Shown: one piece after another, positions 121 through 22,132 of the stretch
Position numbering within the stretch: position 1 is the first letter of the stretch
How the letters are laid out: every line of letters begins with the position of its first letter
Source: a virus
Length of the DNA: 27,837 nucleotides
Direction: 5' to 3' (one strand)
IMG/VR virus record: IMGVR_UViG_3300027963_000271
Coordinates: 1 to 27,837 of that record
Made by a program: the position numbers and the translations under genes
Notes under the pieces: model-generated
Told to the model about the DNA's origin: nothing
Database searches by the model: none
The model's input: only the letters and a program-made list of their open reading frames with translations

Positions 121-297
121 TCACCGCCAGACAACCTTCCGCGCCACCCGCACAGGGGCCGTCGTCACCGTCACCGCCTTAGAGCACGCCCCGCCCACGC
201 AGGTCGTCGGCCTAGCGGTCGGCCGTCGGAACGGGCCGGCGTGGGCCGACGCCGACAAGATCACCAGAGCCACCACTGCGAGAAATCCATTTCGCAT
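121..297 (-). CDS. small exported Cys-containing basic peptide
   Basis: A 58-residue product starting at ATG 297, preceded by GGAG about 7 nt upstream. Residues 1-20 form a classic signal peptide: MRNG, a hydrophobic core FLAVVALVILS, and an A-H-A cleavage motif before GPF. The predicted mature part is about 38 residues, basic and rich in Thr, Arg and Val, with a C-V-G-G-A-C motif (residues 33-38) that could form a disulphide or bind a metal. It is the last protein of the early operon. It lies in the same frame as the upstream DUF551 gene with no stop between them, so it may be made alone from its own ribosome site or as the tail of a longer protein. The function is unknown; a periplasmic or envelope role such as superinfection exclusion is conceivable. 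Confidence 0.5.
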   Translation of the reverse strand: MRNGFLAVVALVILSASAHAGPFRRPTARPTTCVGGACSKAVTVTTAPVRVARKVVWR

Positions 298-501
298 CAC
301 GTCACTCCGTTGAGGCGGTCTTGGCAGCGGCATCCACCACAACGGCAGATACCCCGCCTCGACCAATTGCGGGCGTGGATACAGCCACGCCACCCCGTCG
401 AACACATCCGAAATCGCACACACCGGCCACGATTTGCCGTCACTCACCAGACAATCCTGCTGGTGTTCTGGCGGGTCTTCGTCGATTCGTCGCCACATCA
501 T
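121..501 (-). CDS. DUF551-type small protein, reading through into the exported peptide
   Basis: The first 63 residues look like the DUF551 family of small phage proteins: an opening M-W-R-R-I-D-E-D-P-P, a central D-G-K-S-W-P, and the family's usual ending W-W-M-P-L-P-R-P-P. DUF551 proteins normally stop close to this W-M-P-L-P motif. Here the frame stays open for 63 more residues and runs through the signal peptide of the exported peptide at 297. The start ATG (501) overlaps the stop of dnaN in an ATGA, so translation is probably coupled. The molecular function of DUF551 is unknown to me. A genuine fusion would place a hydrophobic segment in mid-protein; two separate products from overlapping starts seem more likely. 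Confidence 0.6.
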   Translation of the reverse strand: MMWRRIDEDPPEHQQDCLVSDGKSWPVCAISDVFDGVAWLYPRPQLVEAGYLPLWWMPLPRPPQRSDVMRNGFLAVVALVILSASAHAGPFRRPTARPTTCVGGACSKAVTVTTAPVRVARKVVWR

Positions 502-1640
502 TCCGCCGCCAACGGCATCACCACCGCCAAGGCGTCATCGTGACGCATCACCACGGCGCTCTCCGCGTCGGTGGCGAAAACCTCAATGATTGCACCCGGG
601 TCAACATTGCGGAGCCAGCCGCCCACGAACGTTGGATCGAGCCGCACCGTGGCCTTTATCCCCGCCATGGTGAGCTCGGCCGTCACGGTCGACTCGCCGT
701 AGTCCGCCGAACGCGCCGACAACATCAGACCGTTGTCGACGAACGTGAACTGCACGCCGCGGCTCGTCTCGTTGACGACAATTGACGCCTGCCGAACAGC
801 CGCGAGCAGCTCGCCGGCCGTCACCTCGGCGTGGGCCGGCGGTGCCTTGAAAACCTTGTCCTCACCGGTGCCGAAATCCGGCCGAATGTTCTTGGGGATC
901 ACGTCGGCCCACTTCGGGAATCGGCCGTCGAGCAGTCTGGCCCAGAGCGTGACGCCGTCCATGTCGGCCACCAGCTCGTTGCCGGCGAGGCTGAGCTGGA
1001 TCGCGTCATCGGCGTTGACCGCCGCCAATTTGGCTAACGTGTTGATGGCGTGGGCCGGGATGATGCACGACGCGTCATCCACCGCCTGGTCCACCTCGGC
1101 GTAGGCCACGTGCAGCCTCCGGCCGTCCGTTGCCACGAACGCCACGTCGCCCTTCTTCTGCTCGACCAGCACACCACCGAGGGCGTAGCGGCTGGAGTCA
1201 TCGTCGGTGGCTCCGACGACGCTCTTGACCACGCGGCAGAACTGGTCGACCGGGAGCCGAAGGAACGGCTTGCCGGCGTCGTCGCCACGCTCAGGCCATT
1301 CGCCGTCAATCACCGGCAGCGTCCACTGGCCGCGGCCGGCTGTGATCCGCACGTTGCTGCCGTCACGGGCAAACGACACGTCACCCACGGCCATGCCCGC
1401 GATTGCCGCCAGCCGGGCATGCGGCACGACAAACGGCTCGTAGTCGGCCCCCTCGAGGTCGACGAGCACCCGCAGCTCACCGTTGAACGCCTCGGCCCCG
1501 TAGGCCCCGAGCCGCACGCCGGAAAACGTCGCGTGCTTCGCGCTGATCGCCGGCGCCACCGCGGTCAGAGCCGCGCGCAGGTCCGGTGCCGGAATCGTCC
1601 AGGCCGTTGTCGGCCGTCTCGTCTTTGTCGATGTCGTCAT
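498..1640 (-). CDS. dnaN: phage-encoded DNA polymerase III beta subunit (sliding clamp)
   Basis: The 380-residue product has the full length and three-domain layout of bacterial beta clamps (E. coli 366). The domain II signature S-R-Y-A-L-G-G-V-L-V-E-Q followed by V-A-F-V-A-T-D-G-R-R-L is diagnostic. Domain III runs from about residue 275 (GELLAAVRQASIVVNE) to the C-terminal VVMPLA, which corresponds to the end that forms the partner-binding pocket. A beta clamp is a homodimeric ring that tethers the polymerase to DNA. The start at 1640 has an AAGGGG ribosome site. It follows the initiator gene by 15 nt and precedes DUF551 with an ATGA overlap. No clamp loader or polymerase is in the window, so it would have to use host or off-window partners. 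The N-terminal domain looks more divergent than domains II and III. Confidence 0.93.
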   Translation of the reverse strand: MTTSTKTRRPTTAWTIPAPDLRAALTAVAPAISAKHATFSGVRLGAYGAEAFNGELRVLVDLEGADYEPFVVPHARLAAIAGMAVGDVSFARDGSNVRITAGRGQWTLPVIDGEWPERGDDAGKPFLRLPVDQFCRVVKSVVGATDDDSSRYALGGVLVEQKKGDVAFVATDGRRLHVAYAEVDQAVDDASCIIPAHAINTLAKLAAVNADDAIQLSLAGNELVADMDGVTLWARLLDGRFPKWADVIPKNIRPDFGTGEDKVFKAPPAHAEVTAGELLAAVRQASIVVNETSRGVQFTFVDNGLMLSARSADYGESTVTAELTMAGIKATVRLDPTFVGGWLRNVDPGAIIEVFATDAESAVVMRHDDALAVVMPLAAE

Positions 1641-1655
1641 GGAATCCCCTTTTGG

Positions 1656-2570
1656 TTACTGATACCGCTTCACCAGAGCCTCGCTGAGAGGCTTTGGCTC
1701 TCCTTGCCGCTCTTTCCTCGCGTTCTCCCGGTCAGCCCGTAGAGCGGCCTGCTGGGCCGCGTGGCGCTTGGCGCGGGAAAACTCCTCGTCGGTCATAGGT
1801 CGACCGTCAAACTCGGGACGCGGGATGCGCACTACGGGCGGACTACCGCCAGGCCGGATTCCCGGCTCACGATGGGTTCCCCCACGGTCCTGGCAGCGAG
1901 AGAACCACGTTGTCGTGATCCAGCGCCGCCAACTCGACTTGGTGGCCTTCTTGGGGTTCGCTTTTAGCCACTGATGGGCCTTGGCAAGCTCGACGGGCAG
2001 GTCAGCCGCCGGATACGCCTTTGACCATTCCGCATGGTCCGCGTCGGTGATTCCCTCCCAGCCGTTGTCCGCAGACCACCGAAGCGGATCGGCCGGCTTT
2101 GAGCGTCGCCGCGGCTGCGGCGTGCTCAGAGCACTAGAGGTGGAAGGATTAGAGGAAGGACAAGAAGACAAAGAAGGAAAAGAAGGAAGAGCGCAATTTG
2201 ACACGGGAAATAATTGCTCGCCGTGAAAGTTCACGGCTTGCCCATCTTCACACGACGGGAAGCCCTCCGAGGCCTCGGAAGGGTGGCACCGCTGATGCAC
2301 CCGGAACCGTGGGATCTCGAGGAACGATCCAGTGCCGACTTGGTAGATCACGACCAGGCCGCGGGCCACAAGCTGCCCAAACATCGGGACGATGTCGAAC
2401 GAGTCGTATGGGAACAGCTCGGCCTTGATCCGCAGGGGCCGGTACTCCATCCGGCCATCGGCGTCGGCCAGCGTCCACAGGCCGGCAAACAGGAGCCGGG
2501 CAACGGGATCGCAAGACGCAACGTCTTCGTTCTTGAAGAAGCCCGGCTTGATGTTTCGTGTTCGTGCCAT
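1656..2570 (-). CDS. phage replication initiator / primosome (DnaD- or O-like) protein
   Basis: The 304-residue product begins MARTRNIKPGFFKNEDVA and continues with L-L-F-A-G-L-W-T-L-A-D-A-D-G-R, the N-terminal winged-helix pattern shared by many phage replisome-organiser proteins. Residues of about 120-160 are a Ser/Pro-rich linker. The C-terminal part (around residues 165-225) has W-x-x-I-T-D-x-D...W...Y-P and W-L-K-A-N-P-K-K-A-T-K-S-S-W-R-R-W-I, a module often found at the C-terminus of such proteins and thought to recruit the helicase loader. It probably binds the phage origin and loads the host replicative helicase. It lies directly upstream of the sliding clamp. The AT-rich, purine-biased linker DNA (2140-2210) could be part of an origin, but I see no clear iterons. 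Confidence 0.7.
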   Translation of the reverse strand: MARTRNIKPGFFKNEDVASCDPVARLLFAGLWTLADADGRMEYRPLRIKAELFPYDSFDIVPMFGQLVARGLVVIYQVGTGSFLEIPRFRVHQRCHPSEASEGFPSCEDGQAVNFHGEQLFPVSNCALPSFPSLSSCPSSNPSTSSALSTPQPRRRSKPADPLRWSADNGWEGITDADHAEWSKAYPAADLPVELAKAHQWLKANPKKATKSSWRRWITTTWFSRCQDRGGTHREPGIRPGGSPPVVRIPRPEFDGRPMTDEEFSRAKRHAAQQAALRADRENARKERQGEPKPLSEALVKRYQ

Positions 2571-2591: not shown

Positions 2592-2831
2592 TCACCCGCC
2601 AGTAATCCGCAGCCCTGTGCGTTGCCTAGGCGTTATCACAGAAGCCTTAGACGGCGGCCGGCTGCACTCACACCGGTCGCACACCAACTCTCCAGGCTGT
2701 TTCAAAAACTTCTCAGCAGTGCTGAAATCGATCCGAATTGCCTCTTTGCACAACCCGCAGAAACCCCTCCGAAACCTGGACCCAGCGATAGCAGGGAACG
2801 TCGCGTCGAGCATCCGCTGGAACTTAGTCAC
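2592..2831 (-). CDS. small zinc-ribbon protein
   Basis: A 79-residue product using a GTG start at 2831 that overlaps the preceding stop as GTGA. A GGAGGG ribosome site lies about 5 nt upstream and decides this start over the in-frame GTG at 2843. Two cysteine pairs, C-G-L-C and C-D-R-C, spaced about 25 residues apart form a zinc-ribbon, followed by one more C and a Pro-rich tail. Such proteins bind DNA, RNA or protein partners; the role here is unknown. Its position between the winged-helix-like protein and the initiator suggests a DNA-metabolism function. Confidence 0.65.
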   Translation of the reverse strand: MTKFQRMLDATFPAIAGSRFRRGFCGLCKEAIRIDFSTAEKFLKQPGELVCDRCECSRPPSKASVITPRQRTGLRITGG

Positions 2832-3154
2832 ACCACCCTCCACACCGGTTGCCGCCTAGCATGACTCCGCGGGCTCTGGCTCTTGGCCATTCGCCCCGTC
2901 TCCGTGATCGTGCCCTGCTTGGCAAGCGCCATCGTGAGCGCCCCCCAGCCGTTGTGGTGTTCAGGCCCAATCCCGTGCCGCTCGCAGACGACGCGGAACG
3001 ATTCGGCCAGCACCTCTTGGCCGGCGAGCTCGGCACGTACGACCGCAGAGGCTCGCTCGATCCAGTCGGCACCGCCGACAGCCGCCAGGGCCACGTCGCG
3101 GGCACGTTCGCCGGCATCTAGATCGAAATAGGTCTGACCGTTGAATGTGGTCAT
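2828..3154 (-). CDS. phage protein with winged-helix-like C-terminal half
   Basis: A 108-residue product. It starts with an ATGA overlap on the methyltransferase stop and ends with a GTGA overlap on the zinc-ribbon gene. The N-terminal half is helical and acidic (D-L-D-A-G-E-R-A-R-D-V-A). The C-terminal part carries G-I-G-P-E-H-H-N-G-W-G-A-L-T-M-A-L-A-K-Q-G, then T-G-R-M-A-K-S-Q-S-P-R-S-H-A-R-R and V-W-R, a pattern I recognise in small proteins near replication genes of many phages (ending ...S-x-x-P-x-x-H-x-R-x-x-x-V-W-R). The predicted topology is compatible with a winged helix binding DNA. No function is established that I can name. Confidence 0.6.
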   Translation of the reverse strand: MTTFNGQTYFDLDAGERARDVALAAVGGADWIERASAVVRAELAGQEVLAESFRVVCERHGIGPEHHNGWGALTMALAKQGTITETGRMAKSQSPRSHARRQPVWRVV

Positions 3155-4041
3155 GCCGTCACCGTGTCAAAGAGGGTTTTGCTGTTCTGCTCGTGAACCT
3201 TCCGAGCCTTGGCGAGATTCTTCATGGCCTGGGAGTGGTACTCCGGCTTGAGTTCGCAGCCGTAGAACCGCCGACCACGCTGGAGCGACACGTAGCCCTC
3301 GGAGCCGATGCCCGTGAAAGGCGAGAACACCAGCTCCCCCGGATTCGTGTAGAGCCTCACCACGCGATCAATCACGCCAAGCTGGAGCGGGCAAATGTGC
3401 CGGGTGTCTTCCTCTGAGCGAGCCTCTCGGACGTTCAGCGTGTCCGTCTCTTTAATGTCGCCCCAGCAGCACTCCGCCCAGTCAATCCACTCGTTCCGCG
3501 ACACTTCGCCCTCGGAGTCAACGGCAATCGAATTGTCGCCTGGAGCACGGAACTTAATGAGATAGTCGGCAAGAGCACCACGCTGCCGGGCTCGATCCGA
3601 CTCAAGTCCCGAAAACTGCAATTCTCGGCTCTTGGTCCGAATCGCTTGTGCCTGCGGATTTTTGCGGATGGCCCAGTCGTACTCGTAGACGAGGCCGGCA
3701 CGCTCACCCATTCGGATGTTGATCCCGCGGTAGTCGTGCAGCCCAACTTCGCCGCTTCGCTTCAACCGCGGAATCTGCATCACGTGGACGATGCACGCCC
3801 GCCCTGGCTTCAGCACTCGACGGAGGCCGGCGTAGAACCACCCGAGGTGGAGCTTGGCTTCCCCGCGGAGATCCTCGCTGTTCCCGATGTCCTCTGGTTT
3901 CGACGTGTACGAAAACAGGCTCGGGAACGGCGGAGAGAACACGGAGAAATCTACGCTGGCGGGAGGCATCACCTCGAGCATGTGGGGGATGCAGTCGCCA
4001 TGATGAACGGCGTATTGTTGCTTGTCACTTAGAAGAGTCAC
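3151..4041 (-). CDS. N4/N6 DNA methyltransferase (beta-type)
   Basis: The chosen start is GTG 4041 (296 residues) because AGGAGG lies 9 nt upstream, inside the end of the helicase gene. An in-frame ATG farther upstream would add 22 residues without such a site. Residues 36-39 are S-P-P-F, the catalytic motif IV of N4-cytosine or N6-adenine methylases, preceded by H-G-D-C. Near the C-terminus F-S-P-F-T-G-I-G-S-E-G is the AdoMet-binding motif I. The order IV before I defines the beta permutation. It modifies phage DNA, most likely against host restriction. It overlaps the SNF2 helicase gene by 17 nt, so the two are translationally coupled. No cognate nuclease is visible. Confidence 0.88.
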   Translation of the reverse strand: MTLLSDKQQYAVHHGDCIPHMLEVMPPASVDFSVFSPPFPSLFSYTSKPEDIGNSEDLRGEAKLHLGWFYAGLRRVLKPGRACIVHVMQIPRLKRSGEVGLHDYRGINIRMGERAGLVYEYDWAIRKNPQAQAIRTKSRELQFSGLESDRARQRGALADYLIKFRAPGDNSIAVDSEGEVSRNEWIDWAECCWGDIKETDTLNVREARSEEDTRHICPLQLGVIDRVVRLYTNPGELVFSPFTGIGSEGYVSLQRGRRFYGCELKPEYHSQAMKNLAKARKVHEQNSKTLFDTVTA

Positions 4042-5479
4042 GGAACATAGCCTCCTGCTCGCGGGTATCGGCATCCACTCGACGTGCCTTCCGGAGCACG
4101 TTGTCAACCATCGGCCGTTCGACTTCGGTGATCGGGATATGCACGTTCAAGGGCCGCGTCGAGCCGACACGATTGGAACGCTTCACCGCCTGGTAATATT
4201 CCTCGTAAGAGTCCTGAAGACCGGAGAAGACTTGCCGAGTGCAGACCTGAAGATTCAGGCCGAAGCCAAGGATCTTCGGCTTGGATATCAGCACCCGAAC
4301 GCGGCCTGCCTTGAAGTCATCGACAAGCCGCTGACGCTCTTCCGGAGGTGTCGAGCCGTCAATGCTGGCAGCTCCTGGGATTACTTCCGCCAGCATGTCT
4401 TGCTCGTCGTTGTACTTGCACCACACGAGCGTTGATTCGTCCGGCCACGACGCGATCAGGTCACGGATAAAAGCAGGCTTCGTCGAGCGGTCGCACTTCG
4501 CCATTCGCGACAGCTTCGCCCTGCTCGTGATTCCCCCAAGGCTCGTGACGAACAGTTGGCCCGTCTCGCCTTGAATGGCCTTGTTCTGTTCATCTGAGAG
4601 ATCCACGTCGTGAATGTGGACGTGAATCGGAGGGATCGTCGAGACGTTGTCTTTCCATCCGTACGTGCTCGGATCGGTCAGGAAGATGCACCAATGAGAC
4701 AACGCACAATAGAACGGCCGCAGAGCGTGCGGCTTGAGTTCCCACCGCTCATTTGTCTGGCCGCGATTCACGAAGAAACGAGCCAGGAATGAGTTAACGT
4801 TCGGAAAGGCGTCGAGAAACACAGCGTGATTGGCGTACTCGATCCGGTCGTTCGGGGCGGGCGTTCCGGTCAGTGCCAGCTTGTACGGCACTCCGGCTCC
4901 AAGCCGCAGACAAACCTGCCCCCACTTCCCGTAGTGGCTCTTCAGCATCGACGACTCGTCAAGGATTAGACCGGCGAGGTTGCCGTCGGGCGTGTCGTCG
5001 CGGAGAGCGTCGTAGTTGGTGATTCCGAGCCGTCCGCCTGGCTTCGTGAGCCACTCGGCGAGGTCTTTTGCGGCAACCTGTTCGACGGGCAGCTTGCTGC
5101 CGTAGAACTTGGCCGCCTCGGCAACCGTCTGGCCGACGACCATCAACGGGCAGACGATCAGCGTCGGCTTGTCTGGACACGCCTTCCGCACGTGGCGAGC
5201 GAACTCCAGAAGCATTAGCGTTTTCCCAAGCCCGCAGTCTGCGAAGATCGCAAACTTCCGCTTTTGAATCGCCGTCCGCACGATGTCCCGCTGGTAGTCG
5301 AACAGGCCGGATTTTGCCCGGTATCCCACAGCGGCCGGCTCTTCGGTGTGAATCCCGAGCAGCGAGGCGTACTCGTCTGGCACTACAGCCATTCGCCCGT
5401 GAATCTCGTACCGCGGGAGCTGCTTGATGGCGATGAACTGGCGGTATCCATCAATGCTGTTGTCTAGATGCACAATCAC
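4025..5479 (-). CDS. SNF2-family superfamily 2 helicase / DNA translocase
   Basis: A 484-residue product with two RecA-like lobes. Q-motif region F-D-Y-Q-R-D (60-65); Walker A A-D-C-G-L-G-K-T (80-87); motif II L-I-L-D-E-S-S (171-177), a DEAH variant; motif III A-L-T-G-T-P-A-P-N (202-210); motif V G-F-G-L-N-L-Q; motif VI Q-A-V-K-R-S-N-R-V-G near residue 440. It should use ATP to move along double-stranded DNA or remodel protein-DNA complexes. Phages often carry this helicase next to a DNA methylase, as here with a 17-nt overlap, and such pairs may act in replication, recombination or anti-restriction. The start overlaps the preceding gene's reading direction as ATGA. Confidence 0.92.
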   Translation of the reverse strand: MIVHLDNSIDGYRQFIAIKQLPRYEIHGRMAVVPDEYASLLGIHTEEPAAVGYRAKSGLFDYQRDIVRTAIQKRKFAIFADCGLGKTLMLLEFARHVRKACPDKPTLIVCPLMVVGQTVAEAAKFYGSKLPVEQVAAKDLAEWLTKPGGRLGITNYDALRDDTPDGNLAGLILDESSMLKSHYGKWGQVCLRLGAGVPYKLALTGTPAPNDRIEYANHAVFLDAFPNVNSFLARFFVNRGQTNERWELKPHALRPFYCALSHWCIFLTDPSTYGWKDNVSTIPPIHVHIHDVDLSDEQNKAIQGETGQLFVTSLGGITSRAKLSRMAKCDRSTKPAFIRDLIASWPDESTLVWCKYNDEQDMLAEVIPGAASIDGSTPPEERQRLVDDFKAGRVRVLISKPKILGFGLNLQVCTRQVFSGLQDSYEEYYQAVKRSNRVGSTRPLNVHIPITEVERPMVDNVLRKARRVDADTREQEAMFRDSSK

Positions 5480-5739: not shown

Positions 5740-6080
5740 TCCGCCCCCCTTGATTGCATGATCACGCTGAACGCCTCTGCCGCCGCTTTCTGGTAGCGAA
5801 GGTGGCAGGCGTTCAACGCCTCGCTCACCATCCGCCGAGCGTGTGGCCGCTCCCGGTTTGCGCTCGCCCTGCCGACGTAGAACGCTGCTGTGACGAGCTC
5901 AGCCAGCTTTTTGTCTTTGCCGTAAATCTGCTGGAGTTGTGCAAACTCCCAATCACGCTCATGGGCAAAGCACCCAAACTCCTCGTCTCGGATGAACTTG
6001 GCCTTACGGTCCTGCTCGGCCTGGTCCTCCATGTAGTGCCGCCACGGGCCGTTGGCGGGATCTTGGTCAGGCTTCGACAT
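5736..6080 (-). CDS. charged helical early protein of unknown function
   Basis: The start is placed at ATG 6080 (114 residues, MSKPDQDPANG) because GGAGGAG lies 7 nt upstream within the end of recT; an earlier in-frame ATG at 6101 has no such support. The protein is highly charged and mostly helical: E-D-Q-A-E-Q-D-R-K-A-K-F-I-R-D-E-E at the N-terminus and A-A-F-Y-V-G-R-A-S-A-N-R-E-R-P-H-A-R-R in the middle. It overlaps recT by 14 nt and the next gene by ATGA. The position next to RecT suggests a recombination or replication accessory, but nothing specific supports an exonuclease. Confidence 0.55.
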   Translation of the reverse strand: MSKPDQDPANGPWRHYMEDQAEQDRKAKFIRDEEFGCFAHERDWEFAQLQQIYGKDKKLAELVTAAFYVGRASANRERPHARRMVSEALNACHLRYQKAAAEAFSVIMQSRGAE

Positions 6081-6879
6081 GGAGCTGCTCCTCCCATGCA
6101 TCGCCGCGGAGCAGTTCGGCCTTGCCGTTGGCCAGGCTCAGCAGCTCGTCGACGTTCGCCGCCGAGAAAACGCCTTCGGCGTGACGCTCGTTGATCGCCC
6201 TGGCGATCTGGTCGAGCTGCTTGATGGTCGAGGCCGAGTTGATCGCCAGCCGCGCCTTGCCGAGCCGGTCGTCGGCCGCCACGGGCTTCGACTCGAGACG
6301 CGGCTGCTCGGGCTTCTGTGGTGCCACGGGGGCCACGACATCGGCAGGGTAGTCCTGTGCCTCTTCACTGCAGATCAGCCCCTTGAGCACGTCAGGGAAG
6401 CCGTCCCTGAGGGCAAATCCGCGGGCCCGCAGCTGGAGCATGCGGCGGGGGTACTGCGTCCATGGGCCGGGCTTCGCCCACAGGCCGGCACGTTTTGCGT
6501 CGGCCACGCTGAACTGCACGACCGTTGCCGTGGGGTAGCCACGCCGCTTGGCCTCGCAGGTCGCCACGGCCTGGTCGTTCTCGCCCTCGACGCGCTCCCG
6601 CACGTACTCGCACACCGAGCTGCCCATCACAAGTGCCAGGGCAGCATCGCCCCACACAGCCGGCCGGCCGTTGATCACGGCAATCGACTGCACCGACTGC
6701 ATCGGCCCGAGGCCGATCTCAGCCCCGTGCTGGATTGCCAGCAGGCAGTCTTCGGGCCGGCCCTTGAAATCCTTTGGCGCGAACTGGCTAGACGCCAGCA
6801 GCTTCCCGAACTTCATCCCCTCGTCGACCGTGTGGAGCGTGAGGCCCCGCGGCTCGGTCGTGGTCAGTCCTGTTGTCAT
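6067..6879 (-). CDS. recT: RecT-family single-strand annealing protein
   Basis: A 270-residue product. The conserved core is clear: L-L-A-S-S-Q-F-A-P-K-D-F-K-G-R-P-E-D-C, then I-Q-H-G-A-E-I-G-L-G-P-M-Q-S-V-Q-S-I, then V-I-N-G-R-P-A-V-W-G-D-A-A-L-A-L-V (residues about 26-83). The middle segment W-T-Q-Y-P-R-R-M-L-Q-L-R-A-R-G-F-A-L-R is the usual RecT arginine-rich motif. The C-terminal third is a variable linker plus small helical domain. RecT coats single-stranded DNA and pairs it with complementary strands during recombination-dependent replication. A GGGGGAG ribosome site precedes the ATG. No RecE-type exonuclease or SSB is recognisable next to it. Confidence 0.88.
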   Translation of the reverse strand: MTTGLTTTEPRGLTLHTVDEGMKFGKLLASSQFAPKDFKGRPEDCLLAIQHGAEIGLGPMQSVQSIAVINGRPAVWGDAALALVMGSSVCEYVRERVEGENDQAVATCEAKRRGYPTATVVQFSVADAKRAGLWAKPGPWTQYPRRMLQLRARGFALRDGFPDVLKGLICSEEAQDYPADVVAPVAPQKPEQPRLESKPVAADDRLGKARLAINSASTIKQLDQIARAINERHAEGVFSAANVDELLSLANGKAELLRGDAWEEQLHVEA

Positions 6880-8016: not shown

Positions 8017-8925
8017 ATGACTGTCAGGGAGCTGCTGGTGGAGCGGTACGCACCGCTTCACCAGCTCACACCACGCAGCGTGGTGATCTACACAAACACC
8101 ATCGACCACTGGATGCGGTTTCTTGGACGGGAACCGCTGACTTCCGATTTTGACGATCTCGCCGTGTCGCGGTTTCTGGCTTTTCGCAACACGTCAACGA
8201 AACGTGGTGGCAAAACGATTTCGCCGAACACGGTCGCCAAAGACAAGGCGCAGATCTGCGCCCTGTGGACCTTTGCCGCCAAGAAACGGCTTGTGGAACA
8301 GTTCCCGAGCCTGCCCCGGACACATTTGGTCCACCGCACGCCCAAGGCCGCAACGGTTGACTCAATGCAGGCCCTCATGGCTGCGGCGTCGACCGGCAAA
8401 CGGCGGATGTACGGCGACTTGCCCGTGGCGTGGTTTTGGGGAACGCTAATCCGCGTAGCGTTTGAGACCGGCGAACGCCGAGGGGCTTTGATGAGCCTTC
8501 GCTGGTCCGAGGTCGACCTCGAGGGGCTCCAGGTCACGTTCCTCGCGGAAACCCGCAAGGGGCGATCCCGTGACATAGTGCGGGCTATCAGCCAGAGCGT
8601 GGCCGATCAACTGAAGCTGCATCGCGGTGCCCCGGGCGATCTGGTCTGGCGTTACCCGGGCAAACCTCACTCGCTCTACGCATCGTGGGATCTGCTCCGC
8701 AAGCGGGCCGGCGTCCAGGTGCGGGGCCTGCACTCAATCCGCAAGAGCTCGGCTTCGTACCTAGCAGCTGCTGGCGGCAACGCCTCGGACCACCTCGGTC
8801 ACAGCAACCCGCGGACGACCGCGGTCTACCTTGATCCATCCATCGTGCGGCCGGCAGAGACTGCCGTGAGCCGGTTGCCGCAGCTGGGCGGACCAGACGC
8901 CGAGTTCGTGCCGGAGGCGGAATAG
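8017..8925 (+). CDS. int: tyrosine-recombinase integrase
   Basis: A 302-residue product. Residues 1-105 form the SAM-like core-binding domain. The catalytic domain has T-G-E-R-R-G-A-L (Arg154 as the box I arginine), Lys181 in E-T-R-K-G-R-S-R, H-S-I-R (His239, Arg242), G-H-S-N (His262) and the nucleophile Tyr271 in T-A-V-Y-L-D. All key residues are present, so the enzyme should be active. It catalyses site-specific integration and excision of the phage genome. AGGGG lies about 8 nt before ATG 8017. It is the first plus-strand gene and is transcribed away from the excisionase-like gene. It lacks an obvious N-terminal arm-binding domain, so it may be a simple integrase. Confidence 0.95.
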   Translation: MTVRELLVERYAPLHQLTPRSVVIYTNTIDHWMRFLGREPLTSDFDDLAVSRFLAFRNTSTKRGGKTISPNTVAKDKAQICALWTFAAKKRLVEQFPSLPRTHLVHRTPKAATVDSMQALMAAASTGKRRMYGDLPVAWFWGTLIRVAFETGERRGALMSLRWSEVDLEGLQVTFLAETRKGRSRDIVRAISQSVADQLKLHRGAPGDLVWRYPGKPHSLYASWDLLRKRAGVQVRGLHSIRKSSASYLAAAGGNASDHLGHSNPRTTAVYLDPSIVRPAETAVSRLPQLGGPDAEFVPEAE

Positions 8926-10982: not shown

Positions 10983-11341
10983 GGCTGCTTCTCCTGCAAG
11001 GGCGGAACACATCCTGGCCCGCGGAGCGTGGCTTCGTTGAGGTGCGGCCACAGCTCGTCTGAGTGGATTGCGGCCAACACATTCCACGCCGCGTGGCCGA
11101 GGTGCGGCTCCCTGCGGTCGCCGGAAAGGAACTGATAGATGTGGGCAATTGCATGGTTCAAAAGGTCGTGAACCGGCATGCCCTTTTCCCAGTTCCAGTC
11201 GCCGTACTTCTCGGCCCCTTCTGCACAGGCTCGGGCTATTTCACGAAGACCGATTGGCGAAACAAGGTCGTAGCGAAACGACTCGACAGCGTCGCTACGA
11301 ACCGCACCGGTGCCAAACTTGGCAGTAGTCCCGTCGCTCAT
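10871..11341 (-). CDS. dATP/dGTP diphosphohydrolase-like protein (DUF5664 type)
   Basis: A 156-residue product. Residues 18-105 carry the family pattern: R-Y-D-L-V-S-P-I-G-L-R-E-I-A-R-A-C-A-E-G-A-E-K-Y-G, then N-W-E-K-G-M-P, L-L-N-H-A-I-A-H-I, E-P-H-L-G-H-A-A-W-N-V-L-A. Members related to MazG/MazZ hydrolyse dATP or dGTP to the monophosphate, and phages use them to shift nucleotide pools. The last 45 or so residues are low-complexity (Ser/Pro/Arg) and overlap the next gene, so the true C-terminus or a frameshift is worth checking. No PurZ gene, needed for 2-aminoadenine synthesis, is visible. It starts with an ATGA overlap after the phosphoesterase. Confidence 0.72.
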   Translation of the reverse strand: MSDGTTAKFGTGAVRSDAVESFRYDLVSPIGLREIARACAEGAEKYGDWNWEKGMPVHDLLNHAIAHIYQFLSGDRREPHLGHAAWNVLAAIHSDELWPHLNEATLRGPGCVPPLQEKQPCPSSSPSPLTTSCGSSIERVDFRERGPAPAARSQPT

Positions 11342-12405
11342 TTCTTCCTCAGGTCGCGGTCGCAGAACAGGGGGAAAGCCTTGGTCGTCTCATGCCGCTC
11401 ATGGTCGATCACCACGCACGCCTGGCACGGGGGCTCGTAGGCGGCTTTGATTCGGACAGCGTAGGCCGAGTGTCCAATCACCGAGCCGTTGCTGACGTAG
11501 CGACCGGATCGGCCCCAAGAGAACTGGTGCCAGTGTCCGAGGCACGTGAGATCGGCGCGGAGCGTGGCATCCCACGCGGCAATGCTCTTGTTGAGCGGCA
11601 CGTGGATGCCGCCGATCCCGCCTTGGAACTTCACCGCATGCCCGTGGTGGAACCGGACGCGAAATCCATCGAGGTCGAGCACGTTGAGATAGCCGGTGCC
11701 GACGTGCCAGCGGACGTTTGGTTTCGTCTCAGCCGCGGCCAGCGTCAGGTAGAGGTGCTGCTCAAACGAATGCTCCATCTCGGTGCCGATGCGGAGCTTT
11801 TCTGTGCTGCGGCCGTGGTTGCCCGAATTGGTCGCAACGATCACCTCGTCGGCCTGGCCGGCGACGGCGTCGAGGAATCCCCGGATTCGCTCCCCGGCCC
11901 AGCGGGTGGCCGCGAGGGGGGCCAGCTGAGCGAGTTCGGCAGTGTCGTCGTGGATGTGGCCGCTGAGGAAATCACCACCAAGCCAGACCACCACACGGCG
12001 GATATCCGCCAACCTGCGTTCGTGCTCGAGCATGACGGCGAGCCGCTCGCCAAGCTCAGCGATCCGCTGGTCGGCCACCTCAAGGCTGTAGTCGTTGAGG
12101 CCGTTCACGGTGGCCGGGTCGACGCGTTCCTCGACGTGCCAGTCAGAGAGAAGCACGACCATCGTGGCGGCGTGCCGTCTTGCCTTGCCGGGCCTCTGGC
12201 GTGCCCTATGCGGGGCGATCCCGCGGAGGCCTGCCATCGCGTCGGCCCGAGCCCGCTCGGCGTCTATGCGGCTCAGAGCGGCCTTGTACTTACTGCGGAG
12301 CCCGGCGGCCTCGGCACGAAGCCGGGCTAACTCTGCGTCGCGGTCGAGGTTGTCCTGCTCGGCGGCACCCTCGCGGACGGCGTCGATCAGCTTTTTCTGA
12401 GCCAT
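11338..12405 (-). CDS. calcineurin-like metallophosphoesterase
   Basis: A 355-residue product. Residues 1-60 are a coiled coil with alternating Arg and Glu; a basic linker follows. The metallophosphoesterase core has all five metal-binding blocks: S-D-W-H (87-90), G-G-D (143-145), G-N-H (195-197), H-H-G-H (253-256) and G-H-W-H (290-293). The family binds two metal ions and cleaves phosphomono- or phosphodiesters, including nucleic acid ends. A phage role in DNA or RNA end processing is likely but unproven. AAGGAG precedes ATG 12405. It overlaps its neighbours by 19 nt upstream and by ATGA downstream. Confidence 0.85.
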   Translation of the reverse strand: MAQKKLIDAVREGAAEQDNLDRDAELARLRAEAAGLRSKYKAALSRIDAERARADAMAGLRGIAPHRARQRPGKARRHAATMVVLLSDWHVEERVDPATVNGLNDYSLEVADQRIAELGERLAVMLEHERRLADIRRVVVWLGGDFLSGHIHDDTAELAQLAPLAATRWAGERIRGFLDAVAGQADEVIVATNSGNHGRSTEKLRIGTEMEHSFEQHLYLTLAAAETKPNVRWHVGTGYLNVLDLDGFRVRFHHGHAVKFQGGIGGIHVPLNKSIAAWDATLRADLTCLGHWHQFSWGRSGRYVSNGSVIGHSAYAVRIKAAYEPPCQACVVIDHERHETTKAFPLFCDRDLRKK

Positions 12406-20875: not shown

Positions 20876-21609
20876 GATGGAGCACTCCACGATCCTGCCG
20901 GCTTCTCGCCCTTTTCAGCGAACTCCGTTGTCCACTGAAACACCGGCTTGTTGAGGTCTTGCCCGGGCCACACCGCCACATACTCGCCGTGGCCGAGCGT
21001 CACCCGAGGCGAGACAAACACCCGGTTGCCGCTCTCCCGCCAATTCCGCCAAAACCAGATGTCTTCGTCTGTTCGCCCGTCGCCCCATCTGCCGTCCGGG
21101 CCTGGCTTGCTCCAGAACCACGGTTTCTTGCATCGCTTCAGCGCCGCTGTTGAAATCACCGTGCAGCCGAAATGGGCCGTGTCGACCTCTTGAACGGGCG
21201 AGGCAAACCACGACGCCGGCAGCGATGTCTTGTCCCCCTCCTCGAGCTTGTCGAGCGTGCCGAGAACCGTGAGCATTGGCCGCCCGTCCTCCCGTTTCGT
21301 CTGCAAGCCGGTCAGGGCGTCGCATTGAAACGTCATGGCCAGGGCAAACAGATGCTCGACGTCCTCCCGCGTGAAAAACGTGTCGTAGTCGATGGTCAGC
21401 AGATACTCGTTCTTGTCGATCATCCGCTCCATCACGCGGGTGTTTACCTGTCCCCAGAACGCACCTGTGCCCATAGTTGGGTTGATGCCGAGGGGGATCA
21501 GGGCCTTTGCCCACGCGAAATGGTTGGCCGTGAACGAGAGCCGAGGCATTGAGAGAACCGCCTCGACTCGCACCTCGACATCTGTTCCGCCGACTTTGAC
21601 AAACATCAT
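20872..21609 (-). CDS. GT-A type glycosyltransferase in the head module
   Basis: A 245-residue product from ATG 21609; an upstream in-frame start at 21642 would run through the terminator and is rejected. The pattern Y-L-L-T-I-D-Y-D-T-F-F (DxD at residues 74-76), D-V-E-H-L-F-A-L-A, the donor-binding L-T-G-L-Q-T-K-R and W-F-W-R-N-W fit a GT-A glycosyltransferase. It may add sugars to the capsid, the tail or phage DNA. It sits between the terminator after the capsid genes and the connector, unlike most siphovirus head modules. A conserved G-x-G-x-x-x-x-x-N donor region is not obvious, so the sugar donor is unknown. Confidence 0.68.
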   Translation of the reverse strand: MMFVKVGGTDVEVRVEAVLSMPRLSFTANHFAWAKALIPLGINPTMGTGAFWGQVNTRVMERMIDKNEYLLTIDYDTFFTREDVEHLFALAMTFQCDALTGLQTKREDGRPMLTVLGTLDKLEEGDKTSLPASWFASPVQEVDTAHFGCTVISTAALKRCKKPWFWSKPGPDGRWGDGRTDEDIWFWRNWRESGNRVFVSPRVTLGHGEYVAVWPGQDLNKPVFQWTTEFAEKGEKPAGSWSAPS

Positions 21610-21616
21610 GTGGCCC

Positions 21617-21653
21617 AAAAGAAAACGGGCGACGGGGGGCACCCCGCCGCCCG
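21617..21653 (-). terminator. rho-independent terminator after the capsid genes
   Basis: On the minus strand CGGGCG, G, CCCCG complement pairs form a 12-pair stem with one mismatch (21653-21642 with 21637-21626) and a 4-nt loop, directly followed by TTTTCTTTT (21625-21617). This is the best intrinsic terminator in the window. It lies between the decoration-like gene and the glycosyltransferase, so it would raise capsid expression over downstream genes by partial termination. Confidence 0.75.
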
Positions 21654-21688
21654 CTCTTGGGCGTTACTGTGGACTAGTGGTCAAGCGT

Positions 21689-22132
21689 TCAGCCGCTCAC
21701 CCACGCCACAACGTTTCCGCTGGTGGCGTCGGTCGGGGCCTGCTCGCCGCGGCCGAGGCGGGCGACGGTGGCCACGCCAACGGTGTTACCGGGGCTGGCC
21801 ACGACGGTCAGGTAGCGCTTCTTGCCGCGGAGGTCGACGTTGAACCGAGCGGTGTAGCCGTTGTTGGCTCCCGTGGTCGTGCCGGCACCGATGGTGAAGC
21901 TGGTTCCACCGACAAAGCCAGAGACATCCGCCTGGCCGGAGCCGGAAGCGTCGCTCTGCTGGAGCTTGAGCACGCTCGCCGCGGTCGCGGTGGCCGCCGT
22001 GAACGGGCTGAACACGATGTCGATGGAGGCGAAATCGTAGGCCAGCGTGTCGATCTCGTGGCTGTGCGTAGCGGAAGCCGCAACGCTCGCCGCCGCCTTG
22101 GTATCCGTCTTCGTGGCTGCAATGTGATGCAT
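21689..22132 (-). CDS. probable capsid decoration / auxiliary head protein
   Basis: A 147-residue product, Ala/Thr/Ser-rich, with a start M-H-H-I-A-A-T-K-T-D-T-K-A-A and a beta-rich remainder (I-D-I-V-F-S-P-F-T-A-A-T-A-T-A, G-K-K-R-Y-L-T-V-V-A-S-P-G-N-T). It is directly downstream of the major capsid gene (28-nt gap) and before the terminator, so it is probably made in amounts similar to the capsid. The R-Y-L-T-V/A-x-x-x-P segment is seen in related virion proteins. A role as decoration protein is inferred from position. Confidence 0.62.
   Translation of the reverse strand: MHHIAATKTDTKAAASVAASATHSHEIDTLAYDFASIDIVFSPFTAATATAASVLKLQQSDASGSGQADVSGFVGGTSFTIGAGTTTGANNGYTARFNVDLRGKKRYLTVVASPGNTVGVATVARLGRGEQAPTDATSGNVVAWVSG

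Follow-up and report, generated by a model that had tools for sequence, protein, structure and literature searches.

Some phages code for a processivity ring of their own. In T4 this ring is gp45, a PCNA-like trimer served by a loader and a polymerase that the phage also supplies, and the replicases of dsDNA viruses were reportedly surveyed by Kazlauskas and Venclovas in 2011. Full-length clamps of the bacterial DnaN type are present in the phages of family PHROG 947 (Aurantimonas AmM-1, Rhizobium RR1-A and 16-3, Paracoccus Pthi1, and Microcystis Mae-JY04), with genomes of 40-60 kb; integrases are annotated in RR1-A and Pthi1, and a tyrosine recombinase in Mae-JY04. According to an excerpt of the description of the cluster MabR mycobacterial prophages, a DNA polymerase III sliding clamp is common to all MabR genomes (PMC9434293). 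Phage-borne DnaN as such is already on record, named temperate-type phages included.

The gene described here was found in a virus record of 27,837 bases, analyzed at full length (the window). The ORF at 498..1640 (minus strand, ATG start) codes for a DnaN-type beta sliding clamp of 380 amino acids, with a full-length profile match to PHROG 947, "DNA polymerase processivity factor" (residues 14-378 of 380, E 7.7e-44). The Pfam model of the central domain, DNA_pol3_beta_2, scored above its cut-off (71.3 bits), the C-terminal model DNA_pol3_beta_3 (24.4 bits versus a cut-off of 27) and the NCBI DnaN model TIGR00663 (107 bits versus 137.65) scored below theirs, and the N-terminal-domain model PF00712 had no match to the clamp in the Pfam search or in the profile search of the record. 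Since the family scores are partly under their cut-offs, we consider the protein a divergent member and withhold the equivalog name.

As judged from the predicted structure, this divergent sequence is yet complete, since all three domains are present in the model and residues 12 to 379 align with solved beta clamps. Bacterial clamps account for 55 of the 58 matches among solved-structure sequences up to E 1 (best E 2.2e-18). The AlphaFold model, made with an alignment of 50 sequences (pLDDT 90.5, pTM 0.88), was superposed with VIA-align on the E. coli beta clamp 2pol with a Z of 35.9 (351 residues, rmsd 2.3, 22% identity), which bears out the complete clamp proposed in an earlier note on this DNA. 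In the model, the first domain keeps the clamp fold despite its divergent sequence. The linker before the third domain is longer in the window clamp and its two nearest kin, and model confidence is lower there. Several inner-face positions that are basic in E. coli are not basic in the window clamp; most of these are likewise non-basic in planctomycete hosts.

Those two nearest kin are on the contigs G001 (clamp 93% identical) and G002 (79%). G001 has about 38.3 kb and a 126-base terminal repeat, and is probably complete because of that repeat. By sequence comparison, the clamp is under purifying selection, with dN/dS values of 0.12, 0.22, and 0.21 between the window, G001, and G002.

Directly upstream of the clamp and on the same strand is a putative replication initiator (1656..2570, minus), which matches PHROG 16167, "replication initiation protein", with its residues 1-128 (E 1e-37) and has no Pfam match. 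Only 15 bases separate the end of its ORF from the clamp start, in keeping with the coupling to an initiator gene that had been noted before. A small gene (121..501, minus) without a PHROG match under E 0.5 overlaps the end of the clamp gene and is kept in both near relatives (75% identity over 115 amino acids in G001, 79% over 67 in G002). Upstream of the initiator are a small ORF (2592..2843, minus), with no family match and no counterpart listed in G001 or G002, and a small conserved gene (2828..3154, minus; 92% and 83% identity in G001 and G002, respectively) that weakly matches a family of unknown function, PHROG 38279. Both near relatives thus retain 121-501 and 2828-3154 along with the clamp. 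The G001 initiator, in turn, belongs to another family (PHROG 2509), and its G002 counterpart is 48% identical to it; the clamp, kept while the initiator family was switched, is therefore the steadier part of the module. The initiators adjoining the clamp look chimeric, with different N-terminal families in the window (PHROG 16167) and in G001 (PHROG 2509, 21152-21943). A stretch of about 90 residues of the window initiator is common to G026 and G034, and its C-terminal part is, by eye, shared with L161.

Further along the window are genes for a DNA methyltransferase (3151-4107, minus; Pfam N6_N4_Mtase) and an SNF2-type helicase (4025-5479, minus; Pfam Helicase_C and SNF2-rel_dom). We found no counterpart of this pair in G001 or in the 20 kb of G002 compared. 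It is 79-80% identical in G012 (33635-35948), whose exonuclease is only 74% identical. This absence from near kin, together with the similarity in G012, suggests that the pair is a mobile cassette. These genes are followed by a RecT-like single-strand annealing protein (6067..6879, minus; PHROG 561, E 7.2e-48), a tyrosine integrase (8017..8925, plus; Pfam Phage_integrase, PHROG 1), the marker on which the putative temperate lifestyle of this phage rests, and an exonuclease-family protein (11338..12405, minus; PHROG 284, E 3e-35). Tail, head, and terminase genes occupy much of the remainder. In five related records (G012, G023, G024, G025, and G040), a protein of about 700 amino acids that by eye resembles another large terminase replaces the large terminase of the window.

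The exonuclease-family protein was used to find the phage group. With it, 188 related viral contigs were retrieved and 80 of them retained; a clamp is present in 12 of the 46 records searched by clamp profile (46 of the 80 exonuclease loci). Nine of the 14 related records of at least 30 kb have the clamp and five are without it, although some of the latter may be fragments. One of the long records, G040, has the initiator but no clamp match. Judging from gene content, the clamp is not indispensable within the group. Where it is present, linkage to an initiator is the rule: for 63 of 70 loci the start of an initiator-like cluster is no more than 2.6 kb upstream of the clamp gene, and for 5 more it is no more than 3.3 kb away. 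The 70 were taken from 84 clamp loci (L053, L074, L097-L176, L186, and L187) as those whose upstream sequence exceeds 2.5 kb, and the cluster was built by linking BLAST matches, the PHROG identification applying only to its window and G001 members.

A profile scan of viral metagenome contigs confirmed at least 518 clamp loci of any kind, from which the best 80 by similarity to the window clamp were taken as phage loci L097-L176. Together with the nine long records and the named temperate-type phages known to carry one, this calls for a correction of the earlier view that complete DnaN copies are uncommon in phages, a view that is wrong for the present group. Among named phage records, 36 of 50,697 have a clamp match at E <= 1e-5. 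At least one of the 36 is a piece of bacterial chromosome, namely the public record L313 (CAKLQH020000026.1), which is labelled "Acinetobacter phage" but has dnaA, dnaN, recF, and gyrB in order. The records from which L306 and L307 come, both unannotated and unverified, may likewise be bacterial DNA.

Profiles of PolC alpha, PolA, PolB, and the loader delta subunit, which found their positive controls in known genomes, had no match in any of 10 clamp-bearing records; an enzyme of very divergent sequence could still escape them, just as the first domain of the clamp itself escaped PF00712. Two of the 10 records have terminal repeats (G001, and a more distant relative with a repeat of 99 bases), and both are probably complete. 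A polymerase gene lying merely beyond the window edge was considered and rejected, since the profiles detected none in these two relatives. The lack of a visible polymerase, also claimed before, holds for the window and for both terminal-repeat relatives by the families searched.

To place the phage clamp among bacterial ones, 84,980 genomes were scanned with motifs from the phage clamps, giving 276 matches, of which 253 are relatives; as the motifs are phage derived, the scan shows where such motifs occur. The best 80 belong to Planctomycetota by organism name, except for one titled only "bacterium", and 77 of these 80 are chromosomal dnaN genes, given the dnaA, recF, or gyrB in their loci. 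Some of the planctomycete genes used below came from this motif scan and the others from the 30 top-ranking among 294 genomes; they are therefore an uneven sample, made up of the nearest kin. In the latter set, dnaA, recF, or gyrB is found within the loci of about 4 kb in 25 of 29 cases, so that up to 3 of the 101 genes lack this context.

In an IQ-TREE tree of 105 rows, the 49 phage clamps included form a single clade (SH-aLRT 100) with a stem of 1.03 changes per column, located inside the planctomycete genes. The fork joining this clade to one chromosomal group has a support of 83, and the deeper nesting forks have 98 and 99; all trees are quick searches with SH-aLRT support only. Of 87 phage clamps, the tree includes 49: those of the window and its two near kin, roughly one in two of the other loci, and several that were selected individually. 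The planctomycete rows number 37, of which 36 belong to the 101 and the last is L199, a locus showing none of dnaA, recF, and gyrB. The remainder are 12 other mobile sequences and 7 other "chromosomal" ones, for which a chromosomal context applies only to E. coli and Acinetobacter, the rest coming from plasmid- or phage-labelled records and being taken as chromosomal. Forcing the planctomycete genes together was rejected in a first sampling (p-AU 0.0171; 37 genes, 7 rows dropped, phages thinned to 22). In a second, wider one, which included all 12 exonuclease-found clamps and in which L199 and L287 were among the rows dropped, the p-AU was 0.0834, with the 26 phage clamps once more forming a single clade (SH-aLRT 100). 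Given these two values, the phage clade may be nested inside Planctomycetota or may be its sister group. All 12 clamps found via the exonuclease, and not via the clamp, fall in the same clade.

From these trees, the sampled phage clamps are one clade inside or beside Planctomycetota DnaN, and the lineage is old, having parted long ago from planctomycete dnaN. A recent pick-up from the host, which the earlier note had named, in combination with a broken pocket, as grounds for giving up its reading, is rejected by the trees, by the long stem, and by the best chromosomal identity to a phage clamp, which reaches 39% in the best segment. In the 105-row tree, the clamps of AmM-1, RR1-A, 16-3, and Mae-JY04 group with Azospirillum DnaN, so that at least two separate captures took place, and the phylum to which a clamp is related can differ from that of the phage's host. 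Mae-JY04 (row L007) is a cyanobacterial phage, yet its clamp falls, on a long branch, with those of Azospirillum and of alphaproteobacterial phages, so that clamps may pass from phages of one phylum to those of another.

The host of the window phage probably belongs to the phylum Planctomycetota, considering the kinship of the clamp and two phage-like contigs (L186 and L187) binned in planctomycete genomes. In L187, a window-type initiator (50% identity over 117 amino acids) adjoins the clamp. A search for a prophage with this clamp in planctomycete chromosomes found none; a distant exonuclease match (35-38%) occurs in 2 of 392 planctomycete genomes. A host search of genome contigs with the clamps of the window and its two near kin gave no match, no host emerged from comparing the terminase with those of named phages, and the RecT and initiator searches led to scattered hosts. 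Among the literature matches listed (titles and abstract openings, with most subscription journals outside the coverage), none deals with DnaN in planctomycete phages, and the portion of PMC12926913 available mentions no phage-borne clamps.

The comparison with host clamps was made on rows reduced at 80% identity (28 of the 87 phage and 52 of the 101 planctomycete clamps). An excerpt of PMC11139829 gives 18 positions for the partner pocket. Phages and hosts hardly diverge at these, the mean being 0.06, whereas it is 0.35 for columns that belong to neither pocket nor interface (p 6e-9). At all 18, the window has a host-type residue, one that occurs in at least 10% of planctomycete DnaN, which rules out a broken pocket. 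Clamp-binding motifs, the check proposed in the earlier note, showed no excess over shuffles in the 44 window ORFs, either as pentamers (2 versus 1.23 expected), as hexamers (1 versus 1.22), or in loose form (5 versus 3.61). The helicase at 4025-5479 has a loose clamp-binding-like pentapeptide, Q-x-x-M-F, near its C-terminus (residue 475 of 484). A conserved protein of 95 amino acids in G001 (L011; 13759-14046, minus) contains a Q-[LI]-x-L-[LF] stretch resembling a clamp-binding motif, found also in 12 of 21 other matched loci, which could be chance within a helix. We do not count these motifs, the stretch of the 95-amino-acid protein included, as proof of partners.

Considering the full-length clamp, the adjacent initiator, the failure to find a polymerase, and a pocket suited to host partners, the best reading would be that the protein serves the host replisome on phage DNA. 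The former suggestion that it redirects the host replisome to phage DNA is thereby supported in part. It seems fairly likely that the protein is a functional homodimeric clamp, old kin of planctomycete dnaN, that the host loader would put onto phage DNA for use by host Pol III. The observations underlying this are the fold (as modeled), the host-type pocket, purifying selection, the position of the clade, the linkage to an initiator, and the lack of a polymerase or loader delta match. What speaks against it are the ordinary frequency of clamp-binding motifs in the window ORFs, the relatives that do without a clamp, the failure to find a prophage with this clamp in planctomycete chromosomes, the weaker nesting in the second sampling, and the non-basic inner-face positions. 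An ancestor of this group of small temperate-type phages would have captured dnaN once, long ago, presumably from a host. The clamp would probably be expressed with the phage initiator in a replication module, presumably early, and its subunits, modeled as monomers, would pair as a homodimer. The host clamp loader would then place the phage ring on primed phage DNA, where host Pol III and other clamp users could bind the conserved pocket. The advantage may be that phage copying is freed from the host clamp supply.

At the subunit interface, it is the kind of change relative to the hosts, and not its extent, that stands out. In the published excerpts, E. coli interface residues include Phe106, the 105-303 ion pair, and Ile305 (PMC11139829, PMC3763527), and residues 103 and 305 are opposite each other across the interface (PMC4041429). 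Phages and hosts each reach at least 80% conservation in 56 columns, and only three of these differ between them (F106 to W, S104 to G, and position 20). The core residue 106 is Trp in 27/28 non-redundant phage clamps and Phe in 51/52 hosts, and position 104 is Gly in 27/28 phage clamps and Ser in 48/52 hosts. At 105/303, at least 31 of the 52 planctomycete clamps carry opposite charges if His is taken as positive, in most cases with the signs swapped compared with E. coli; the pair is neutral in the phages, with none of 28 charged oppositely; for 103/305 the figures are at least 35/52 and 0/28. Both pairs covary in hosts (permutation p 0.006 and 0.008, respectively, uncorrected for nine pairs tried and ignoring relatedness).

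These changes raise the possibility, which we nevertheless consider unlikely, that the interface has been re-specified so that the phage subunits pair only with themselves and keep a host-type pocket, the ring being out of the reach of host regulation, host-clamp inhibitors, and subunit mixing. Two of the three fixed differences, at 106 and 104, are on the interface strand, the two charge pairs that covary in hosts are missing from every phage clamp, and the window is host-type at only 12 of 18 interface positions compared with the complete agreement of the pocket. The interface as a whole, however, is not more diverged than the rest (mean 0.28 versus 0.35 elsewhere, p 0.14), its enrichment among diverged positions is not significant, and only 1 of its 8 host-conserved positions has changed, compared with 25 of 81 elsewhere. 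Moreover, the pair 74/298 is kept (49/52 planctomycete and 26/28 phage clamps), and in phage-host cross-pairing attraction would be lost without any like-charge clash. Because all phage rows are one clade, the fixed changes amount to a single evolutionary sample. The hydrophobic core of the interface is kept in the window (I78, L108, I272, V for L273, and an aromatic residue at 106). The fuller version of this idea is more doubtful still: a planctomycete-phage lineage with an orthogonal ring, in which the host-form pocket is frozen and the interface rewritten (Trp core, salt bridges removed), so that rings stay unmixed and the same polymerase is recruited.

Another possibility, also on the unlikely side, is that of simple dosage, in which the phage supplies extra host-type clamp for many phage forks, mixing freely with host DnaN and without any specificity. 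The fully host-type pocket, the ordinary fold, and the absence of the clamp from some relatives would all fit, but dosage does not explain the recoded interface residues, nor, by itself, why all 12 exonuclease-found clamps belong to one old lineage instead of being fresh host copies. The clamp as a loaded, working homodimer remains the reading we prefer.

Some host-fixed positions have also drifted in the phages. One is that of E. coli R80, which presumably faces the DNA channel; 96% of hosts have R there, whereas most phages have G, N, or A. Such drift would fit a clamp resisting a host factor, a host regulator, or a rival-phage protein that disables the host clamp; a precedent is phage Twort, whose Gp168 blocks the DNA channel of the S. 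aureus clamp, according to an excerpt of PMC11139829. Differences off the pocket are, however, expected after a long divergence, and we regard this explanation as improbable. By its title, structure 2xur concerns an E. coli Gly157 mutation that affects replication initiation; position 157 is Gly in 52/52 planctomycete clamps and Ala in 71% of the 28 phage clamps, and the window, by eye, keeps Gly. It is very improbable that the clamp is a regulator or decoy that titrates host clamp partners with no role in synthesis, since an intact pocket could bind partners but a monomeric decoy would not need three domains and a hydrophobic interface core under purifying selection, or linkage to an initiator.

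Phages that keep a clamp of their own while apparently lacking a polymerase suggest that, of the whole replisome, the clamp can be the component that pays to own. The uncultured phages marked by this gene probably have planctomycete hosts, to our knowledge a phylum with few studied phages. If the interface were truly re-specified, nature would here have insulated a copy of a central part of the cell machinery.

Compared with the systems described so far, the clamps of the PHROG 947 phages are 21-27% identical to the window clamp, and those of AmM-1, RR1-A, 16-3, and Mae-JY04 fall away from its clade, the placement of Pthi1 being unsure. The MabR clamp is likewise a prophage-borne DnaN homolog, according to the excerpt of PMC9434293, but unlike the window clamp it groups, on a long branch, with Nocardia and Streptomyces rows, and its gene is two genes or more beyond the lysis genes with no initiator annotated beside it. 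The E. coli beta clamp has the same fold, three domains, and partner pocket at 22% identity, and the charged 105/303 pair is neutral in these phages. The closest likeness is to the chromosomal DnaN of Planctomycetota, which shares up to 39% identity in the best segment, the SSRxALGxVL-type and MPLA-type motifs, and the same pocket residues. The phage copies differ from it by W for F at 106, by G for S at 104, and by the loss of the 105/303 and 103/305 charge pairs, and their genes are located in a phage replication module instead of next to dnaA and gyrB.
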